From Spirochaeta thermophila DSM 6578 (lineage in GTDB: Bacteria > Spirochaetota > Spirochaetia > Winmispirales > Winmispiraceae): DNA of 64,000 bases. Positions 46,548 through 48,216 of this stretch are shown in pieces; the stretch's first letter is position 1; each line of letters begins with the position of its first letter. Position numbers and translations under genes: made by a program. The notes beneath the pieces were generated by a model that had not been told where the DNA came from, ran no database searches, and saw only the letters and a list, made by a program, of their open reading frames with translations. The DNA is taken from positions 1,178,001 through 1,242,000 of the forward strand of contig NC_017583.1 in NCBI RefSeq assembly GCF_000184345.1, in the 5' to 3' direction.

Positions 46548-47420
46548 CTACCTGAGCAGCTCGAGTACCGACTGAGGCTTCTGGTTGGCCTGGGCGAGCA
46601 TGGCGGTGGAGGTCTGAATCAGGATCTGCTTCTTCACGTACTCCACCATCTCTGCAGCCATATCCGCGTCCCTGATCCTCGACTCTGCGGCCTGGAGGTT
46701 CTCGGCGCCTATGGAGAGGCTCTTTCGGGAGTACTCCAGCCTGTTCTGATACGCACCGAGATCGGCCCTCTGCTTGTTCACCTTGAGGAGGGCCTTGTCG
46801 ATGAGACCGATGGCCCTGTTGGCATCCTCCGGGGTGCCGAGGGTGAAGAAACTGGCGGTATGGGGGAGTCCGTTGGTGCTCTGGATACCGAGGCCCTGCG
46901 CAGTCATGGTCCCGATATAGACTCGCTCGCGCTGATCCATGTTGGCTCCGATGTGGAACCACATGCTGGCGGTGACCACGTTCTCTCCGGTCTCCCGCGC
47001 GAATCTTCCGGTGAGGAGGTTCATGCCGTTGAACTGGGCGTGGGATGCGATCCTGTTGATCTCGTCCACCAGCTGGGAGACTTCGACCTGGATCTGCATC
47101 CTGTCCTCGTCCGAGTAGATGCCGTTGGCGGCCTGAACTGCCAGTTCCCTCAGCCGCTGGAGGATGTCCTGGATATCCTGGAGATATCCCTCGGCGGTCT
47201 GGATGAACGAGATGCCGTCGGCGGCGTTTCTCTCGGCCTGCCTGAGTCCCCGGATCTGGGAACGCATCTTCTCGGAGACGGCAAGGCCTGATGCATCGTC
47301 AGAGGCCCTGTTGATACGGAGACCGGACGAGAGCTTTTCCATGCTCTTGTCCATGTCAATCCCGTTGAACTTGTTCTGACGATGAGCGAAGAGGGCACTG
47401 ATGTTGTGATTGATAATCAT
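46548..47420 (-). CDS. flaB: Flagellin FlaB (periplasmic flagellar core protein)
   Basis: 290 residues, typical of spirochaete FlaB. N-terminal coiled domain [35 protein letters not shown] and C-terminal [17 protein letters not shown] with the terminal LLR. No signal peptide, as expected for export through the flagellar type III system. It has its own sigma-28-like promoter, a structured leader, a strong GGAGG ribosome site 7 nt upstream and a strong terminator. Confidence 0.97.
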
Positions 47421-47478
47421 GTGCTATCCTCCGTGATAGATTGTGGGAACCTCCCTGTTCCCTGGTCTCGACGAGACC
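47421..47478 (-). promoter_or_regulatory. flaB mRNA leader with two hairpins and two CsrA-type sites
   Basis: On the minus strand the leader folds GGTCTCG/CGAGACC (47478-47464) and then GGGAAC-AGGGAG-GTTCCC (47462-47445). The second loop shows an AGGGA (ANGGA) motif inside ACAGGGAGGT. Another ANGGA, ACGGA (47434-47430), overlaps the GGAGG ribosome site (47432-47428). This two-site layout is known for CsrA control of hag in Bacillus; its role here is inference. Confidence 0.6.
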
Positions 47479-47487
47479 TCTCTTCAA

Positions 47488-47514
47488 TTGTCGGATGCCT
47501 CTGCAGGCGCTTTA
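47488..47514 (-). promoter_or_regulatory. Sigma-28 (FliA)-like promoter of flaB
   Basis: Minus strand TAAA (47514-47511), exactly 15 nt, TCCGACAA (47495-47488). The consensus is TAAA-N15-GCCGATAA, so ten of twelve positions match. Confidence 0.75.
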
Positions 47515-47565: not shown

Positions 47566-48216
47566 ATGGACGTGGGGGTCGTCTGTACGGGAGGGCTCGG
47601 ACCGGAAAAGGAGCTCGTCGCATCTCTCCTGTCGCGGACGGAGGATCCGGATCGGATCTTCGTGGTGGCCGCTGACTCCGGTCTCCTCCTGTGCAGAGAG
47701 TATGGGCTGACCCCCCACCTCTTCGTGGGAGACCTCGATTCCCTCCCGGACAGAAGCGTGCTCCACGCCTTTCCTCGTACCGAGGTGAGGATATTCCCCA
47801 GGGACAAGGACTATACCGATACGGAACTCGCGATAGAGGCTCTCAGGGAGAGAGGGGTGCATCGCTGGTTTCTCCTTGGAGGGGGAGGGGGACGTGCCGA
47901 TCAGTTCCTCGGCATTGTCTCCCTGTGCATCCGCGACTTTCATCCTGAGGTGTGGCTCACCCACCGCGAGGAGATCCGGGTGCTCCGGGAAGGATGCAGA
48001 TACAGGATCGACGTGCAGAGGGGTGACATCATTTCCCTCTTTCCTCTCTCCTGCAGGAGGTGCCGTGCCGTCACGAGAGGATTGCGGTGGCCGCTGGACT
48101 CCCTCGAGTGGCGGCCGGGGGATATGGGTATCAGCAACGAGGCGGTGGAGGATGTCGTGGAGGTCATGGTGGTGGAGGGACGGTACCTCTGGGTGAGGAA
48201 CCTCGCCCCCGTGTGA
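47566..48216 (+). CDS. thiN: Thiamine pyrophosphokinase
   Basis: Transfers pyrophosphate from ATP to thiamine, giving thiamine diphosphate. 216 residues. VVAADSGLLLCREYGLTPHL, the acidic substrate motif VGDLDSL, the DYTDTELAIEAL motif and LLGGGGGRADQFL are family hallmarks. The C-terminal substrate domain ends with GISNEAV. ATG 47566 fits the leaderless promoter; the GTG-type start at 47530 would lie in the -35 box. Confidence 0.93.
   Translation: MDVGVVCTGGLGPEKELVASLLSRTEDPDRIFVVAADSGLLLCREYGLTPHLFVGDLDSLPDRSVLHAFPRTEVRIFPRDKDYTDTELAIEALRERGVHRWFLLGGGGGRADQFLGIVSLCIRDFHPEVWLTHREEIRVLREGCRYRIDVQRGDIISLFPLSCRRCRAVTRGLRWPLDSLEWRPGDMGISNEAVEDVVEVMVVEGRYLWVRNLAPV

Follow-up and report, generated by a model that had tools for sequence, protein, structure and literature searches.

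In Bacillus subtilis, CsrA blocks the Shine-Dalgarno (SD) sequence of hag and FliW relieves this block, with fliW and csrA being translationally coupled (PMC6529632); flagellin export frees FliW, which removes CsrA (PMC7652899). Repression of Campylobacter jejuni flaA is mediated by two ANGGA hexaloops in its leader; they are separated by 21 nt, the second one lies over the ribosome-binding site, and CsrA binding occurs at about 50 nM (PMC4894983). A CsrA dimer can span two GGA sites that lie 10 to 63 nt from each other; on the Escherichia coli glgC leader, the dimer is tethered at a hairpin-loop site and from there bridges to the SD (PMC7652899).

Within the spirochaetes, CsrA(Bb) of Borrelia burgdorferi represses flaB (Sze 2011, as cited in PMC3757020, PMC8668096, and PMC4066749). 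For Leptospira, the flaB sections of PMC8668096 report that recombinant CsrA bound the flaB3 and flaB4 leaders in gel shifts and that a GGA mutation abolished binding to the flaB3 leader. For Treponema denticola, SD-proximal sites in flaB1 and flaB2 have been mentioned without data (PMC9481697). CsrA control of flaB in Borrelia and Leptospira, to the extent covered by these accounts, and the two-hexaloop layout of C. jejuni flaA are therefore already known. Here we describe the leader of a flaB gene in a 64-kb stretch of the Spirochaeta thermophila DSM 6578 genome (the window), for which an earlier note had proposed a two-site CsrA switch.

The flaB leader contains two ANGGA hexaloop hairpins

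The flaB leader, as read from the sequence, consists of a sigma-28-like promoter followed by three hairpins. Its features are as follows (all on the minus strand).

46548..47420: flaB, the regulated gene, encoding a periplasmic-flagellar flagellin of 290 aa; ATG at 47420; identified from the ORF and FlaB homologues
47427..47432: SD sequence GGAGGA, just 5' of the ATG at 47420; GGAGG invariant in 44 aligned leaders
47434-47430: second ANGGA (ACGGA), overlapping the SD GGAGGA
47424..47439: hairpin 2, putative CsrA site 2, CTATC[ACGGAG]GATAG; 5-bp stem, loop 47434-47429 holding the start of the SD
47445..47462: hairpin 1, putative CsrA site 1, GGGAAC[AGGGAG]GTTCCC; perfect 6-bp stem (arms 47462-47457 and 47450-47445) and 6-nt loop (47456-47451)
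47464..47478: upstream hairpin GGTCTC-GTC-GAGACC; stable, at the predicted mRNA 5' end, loop without GGA
47488..47514: sigma-28-like promoter TAAA-N15-TCCGACAA, read from the sequence; the transcription start is predicted to lie near 47480

FlaB homologues showed 71-100% identity within the same order and 71-83% in other spirochaetes. The sigma-28 promoter consensus is TAAA-N15-GCCGATAA, and the genome encodes a FliA-type sigma factor (E 2.7e-88). The leader ends in TAAAGCGCCTGCAGAGGCATCCGACAATTGAAGAGAGGTCTCGTCGAGACCAGGGAACAGGGAGGTTCCCACAATCTATCACGGAGGATAGCAC-ATG. As the earlier note had claimed, one ANGGA lies in a 6-nt loop on a perfect 6-bp stem (hairpin 1), and another overlaps the SD, ACGGA at 47434-47430 sharing bases with GGAGGA at 47432-47427. 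That note did not include the hexaloop of hairpin 2, a further AGGGA in the 5' arm of hairpin 1, the upstream hairpin, or the sigma-28-like promoter. In hairpins 1 and 2, ANGGA fills the first five positions of each six-nucleotide loop, and the loop of hairpin 2 is the SD region. The offset between the two ANGGA motifs is 22 nt, which falls within the 10-63 nt range that a CsrA dimer can bridge (PMC7652899).

The CsrA consensus obtained by SELEX is RUACARGGAUGU (PMC7652899). The suggestion that hairpin 1 is close to this consensus was borne out, as ACAGGGAGGT at site 1 agrees with 9 of the 10 letters of the ACARGGAUGU core. Because most hairpins from the published SELEX had four or fewer pairs (PMC7652899), a stem of 6 bp departs from the in vitro optimum. 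Relatives also show hairpins similar to GGTCTC-GTC-GAGACC, for example GCCC-TGTAC-GGGC in leader L008.

Comparison with described CsrA-regulated leaders

By this comparison, the closest documented precedent is C. jejuni flaA, which is nearer than B. subtilis hag. Both the flaA and the S. thermophila leaders have two adjacent ANGGA hexaloop hairpins about 21 nt apart, the second over the ribosome-binding site, together with compensatory changes among species, genomic csrA and fliW, and sigma-28 transcription (predicted here). They differ in phylum, in that fliW and csrA are adjacent here and not in Epsilonproteobacteria, and in that S. thermophila has three paralogous flagellin genes, each with a version of the layout. 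Binding, footprint, and mRNA localisation are C. jejuni data, whereas the S. thermophila leader is known from sequence.

The hag layout, which the earlier note had offered as the precedent, holds in that CsrA blocks the SD there, but the two ANGGA hexaloops of C. jejuni flaA make a nearer match. The likeness to hag consists of an SD block by CsrA and its relief by FliW, both proposed here, and of the fliW–csrA coupling suggested here; in structure, the Campylobacter leader is the nearer documented one. With E. coli glgC, the leader would share a hairpin-loop tether and a bridge to the SD, although glgC is a metabolic gene with four sites and no FliW.

In B. burgdorferi, the gene and phylum are the same, and a CsrA site over the SD and a translational block (proposed here) are shared; in the accounts that cite the original work, flaB is listed among CsrA targets with multiple sites. 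The earlier statement that CsrA affects FlaB in Borrelia agrees with the repression of flaB as cited in PMC3757020. In contrast to the S. thermophila leader, the two Borrelia-like leaders (L149 and L150) inspected by eye enclose the upstream ANGGA only in weak stems rich in A/U. Leptospira flaB likewise has a GGA hexaloop at the SD, but the description in the flaB sections of PMC8668096 covers this SD-proximal hexaloop only, with no second upstream hairpin.

The genome encodes adjacent fliW and csrA genes

The earlier note had proposed looking for csrA and fliW, with a missing csrA counting against the switch; both genes were found. The genome (2.56 Mb, one contig) encodes one csrA (PF02599, 93 bits, E 3.2e-26, C1:1571428-1571586) and one adjoining fliW (PF02623, 142 bits, E 1.4e-41). 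csrA lies directly behind fliW with a one-base stop/start overlap (TAATG, C1:1571586), suggesting that the two genes are translationally coupled as in Bacillus. Among solved structures, the CsrA protein matched B. subtilis CsrA (1t3o, E 5e-18), and both proteins matched their counterparts in the FliW–CsrA complex 5dmb (E 4e-21 for the FliW chain). The pair adjoins a flagellin-like gene, which we took to be flgL.

The two-hairpin structure is conserved by compensatory changes

In the -90..-20 region, 48 of 86 flaB leaders had an ANGGAN hexaloop carried by a stem of 6 bp or more, compared with 0.04 expected from dinucleotide shuffles; since the identical hairpin search was applied to the shuffled sequences, this comparison is free of site-picking bias. 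In the other leaders, the stem enclosing this motif was shorter or imperfect. On both strands of the whole window, only three such strict hairpins occurred, and of these only that of flaB leads into an SD and a start codon. On the basis of the shuffles and the window-wide count, a chance origin of the hairpin was rejected.

We also examined flaB loci from a scan of named genomes (80 loci on Spirochaeta-, Alkalispirochaeta-, Marispirochaeta-, Treponema-, and Gracilinema-type contigs). ANGGA lay within 22 nt of the start codon in all 81 leaders first examined, and 80 of 81 distinct leaders from the named spirochaete contigs and close relatives had both an upstream ANGGA hairpin site and an SD ANGGA. 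The distance between the two motifs was 21-31 nt in 75 of 80 leaders, with a median of 24 over the 80. The commonest loop 1 was AAGGAT (36/80) and the commonest closing pairs were AC/GT (41/80); read together as AC[AAGGAU]GU, these letters give the ACARGGAUGU core known from CsrA SELEX.

When the arms of hairpin 1 were swapped between species, pairing fell from 469 of 560 pairs (native) to 335 ± 8, with a slight bias toward pairing because, among the upstream ANGGA motifs, the one whose flanks paired best was taken as site 1. The corresponding values for hairpin 2 were 321 of 400 and 248 ± 7, and its outer pairs beyond the SD core dropped from 169 of 240 to 105 ± 7 after the 3' arm swap. Across 44 aligned leaders, pairing was seen in 90.7% of cells, against 67.8% with shuffled partners and 54% or less when the partner was slid by one base. 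Two-sided changes were seen in 127 cells (47.5 when shuffled), affecting all six pairs of hairpin 1 and three of the five pairs of hairpin 2, and the covariation score was 0.617, against 0.199 for shuffled and at most 0.175 for slid partners. A.GGA in loop 1 was invariant while the stem sequence drifted. Judged from these alignments, compensatory stem changes preserve the two-hairpin structure. Together with the presence of the layout in all three flaB leaders of this genome and in nearly all spirochaete flaB leaders, they support the proposed two-site CsrA switch at the sequence level.

A covariance model finds the element at flaB start codons across the phylum

In the S. thermophila genome, a covariance model of the element (R1) gave two significant matches, both in flaB leaders (5e-7 and 1e-6), and no match to the third flaB. 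Matches outside flaB were weak (E 0.014 or worse); the third-best (C1:316304, E 0.014) falls inside an apparent LacI-type regulator coding region and was taken as chance. Matches to R1 were obtained in 145 of the 295 spirochaete genomes searched and in 84 of the 122 genera. All 29 phylum matches that were fetched abut a FlaB start codon, some of them belonging to sequences used to build the model. R1 has limited sensitivity: Borrelia-like genomes go unmatched, as do many genomes of the Treponema type and, in S. thermophila itself, the third flaB. In a 1.1-Mb Treponema-type genome (L158), the leader was recognized by eye as TGCAGGGC[ACGGAC]GTCTTGCA. A search of 4227 Rfam families gave no match at gathering score, the best reaching 15.8 bits against a required 50 and lying on the opposite strand.

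Across genomes, 139 had both csrA and the R1 element, 6 the element only, 118 csrA only, and 32 neither, a table that is no strong evidence because the sensitivity of the model is limited and flagella confound the comparison. csrA gave no match in six element-bearing draft genomes (G022, G063, G135, G279, G289, and G292), and fliW was also not found in the five of these that were searched for it (G022, G063, G279, G289, and G292). The simplest reading is an assembly gap over the adjacent pair, and real loss fits as well. In another draft, G159, a hairpin was seen by eye and neither csrA nor fliW was found.

Predicted folding depends on temperature and on the coding sequence

The predicted pair probabilities of hairpin 1 were 0.99-1.0 at 37 C and 0.86-0.94 at 65 C, and the upstream hairpin (47464-47478) was kept in the minimum free energy (MFE) fold at both temperatures. 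Those of hairpin 2 were 0.92-0.95 at 37 C and about 0.1 at 65 C. When 30 nt of coding sequence were included, the MFE fold lost hairpin 2 and the SD region paired with the coding region; hairpin 2 formed when the coding sequence was left out. The fold of one sequence is not enough to decide on hairpin 2, since the outcome depends on the coding sequence included. Hairpin 2 is supported by covariation across the leaders, though it is weak here at high temperature, and according to the model it should be largely open at about 65 C. Site 2 may therefore act single-stranded at growth temperature; in this thermophile, CsrA might then need to capture a single-stranded site 2 while being tethered by the stable hairpin 1.

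Alternative explanations

The melting of hairpin 2, which holds the SD, between 37 and 65 C in silico would also be expected of an RNA thermometer in which the hairpins alone cover the SD structurally or thermally, without CsrA. We consider this very unlikely: the SD core is mostly in the loop rather than in the paired arms; loop 1, despite its large distance from the SD, keeps A.GGA invariant amid a drifting stem; and Treponema-type and many other non-thermophile spirochaete genomes have the same layout. If hairpin 1 were a generic 5' stabiliser of the mRNA with an incidental loop GGA, there would likewise be no need for an invariant A.GGA in a six-nucleotide loop, for closing pairs of AC/GT, or for the nearly fixed spacing to the SD. 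This possibility, which would suit the position of hairpin 1 near the predicted 5' end and the extra hairpin preceding it, appears extremely improbable.

Another RNA-binding protein, or FliW itself, might read the leader. In vitro, FliW by itself shifts the hag leader of B. subtilis, although 500-fold more weakly than it binds CsrA (PMC6529632), and the six csrA-negative drafts would also fit such a reader. However, the consensus of the loop coincides with that of CsrA from SELEX, and fliW matches were lacking too in five of those six drafts, so that we give this explanation hardly any weight. We therefore favor, with a probability of about 0.9, the view that the flaB leader is a two-site CsrA operator with a FliW-relieved block of translation.

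Proposed mechanism and significance

The flaB leader contains every sequence part of the CsrA–FliW flagellin scheme, and very probably it is a real on/off switch of this known type. We infer that, in S. thermophila, CsrA binds the leader and represses flaB and that FliW relieves the repression. A CsrA dimer would dock on hairpin 1 with high affinity and then bridge to hairpin 2; since the loop of hairpin 2 is the SD region, the CsrA-bound leader would bar the ribosome from starting flaB translation. While cytoplasmic flagellin is kept low by export, free FliW would bind CsrA and the block would be lifted; when flagellin backs up, it would capture FliW, and CsrA would shut flaB off.

The flagellin feedback switch described in Bacillus and Campylobacter, and partly in Borrelia and Leptospira, would thereby be extended to a free-living spirochaete and, judging by covariation, to much of the phylum, including the leader in the 1.1-Mb Treponema-type genome. 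A limited literature search found no description of a phylum-wide, covarying two-hexaloop element, and such an RNA element may be new. It is a defined element of about 50 nt, absent from Rfam, whose exact bases can be tested, and it raises the question of whether the flagellins of the spirochaete filament are balanced at translation.

Other flaB leaders and the surroundings of flaB

Two further flaB genes lie in tandem at C1:1563654 and C1:1564681. The leader of the second flaB has TCCGGGC-[ATGGAC]-GCCCGGA and ATGGAGG at the SD, and that of the third has GGAAAGGC-[AGGGATC]-GCCTTTCC and AGGGAGGG at the SD. All three flaB leaders of the genome thus combine an ANGGA hairpin loop with an SD ANGGA; because their stems are unrelated in sequence, the common layout is not mere sequence inheritance. 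The third leader differs in its 7-nt loop and in that AGGGAGGG of the SD region can pair with an upstream CUCUCU (CTCTCT in DNA), and this gene may be controlled differently from the other two.

A broader scenario, which we regard as speculative and rather unlikely, is that of an ancient, phylum-wide flagellin-mRNA element in which CsrA affinity differs from one paralogous flaB leader to the next. CsrA and FliW would then set the order or ratio of flagellins in a heteropolymeric periplasmic filament, and abundant flaB mRNA would also titrate CsrA, like C. jejuni flaA.

As a separate observation, the flaB2 leader (L004) contains a perfect 12-nt direct repeat, ATGGAGGAAGGT, at 1379-1390 and 1489-1500. 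One copy is the flaB2 SD region, and the other, 110 nt upstream, adds an extra ANGGA site near the predicted mRNA 5' end. The flaB gene at 47420 lies outside the flagellar cluster in which the other two flaB genes and fliW–csrA are found, and its divergent neighbor (47566-48216, plus strand) appears from its sequence, which includes a GDLDS motif, to be thiamine pyrophosphokinase-like.
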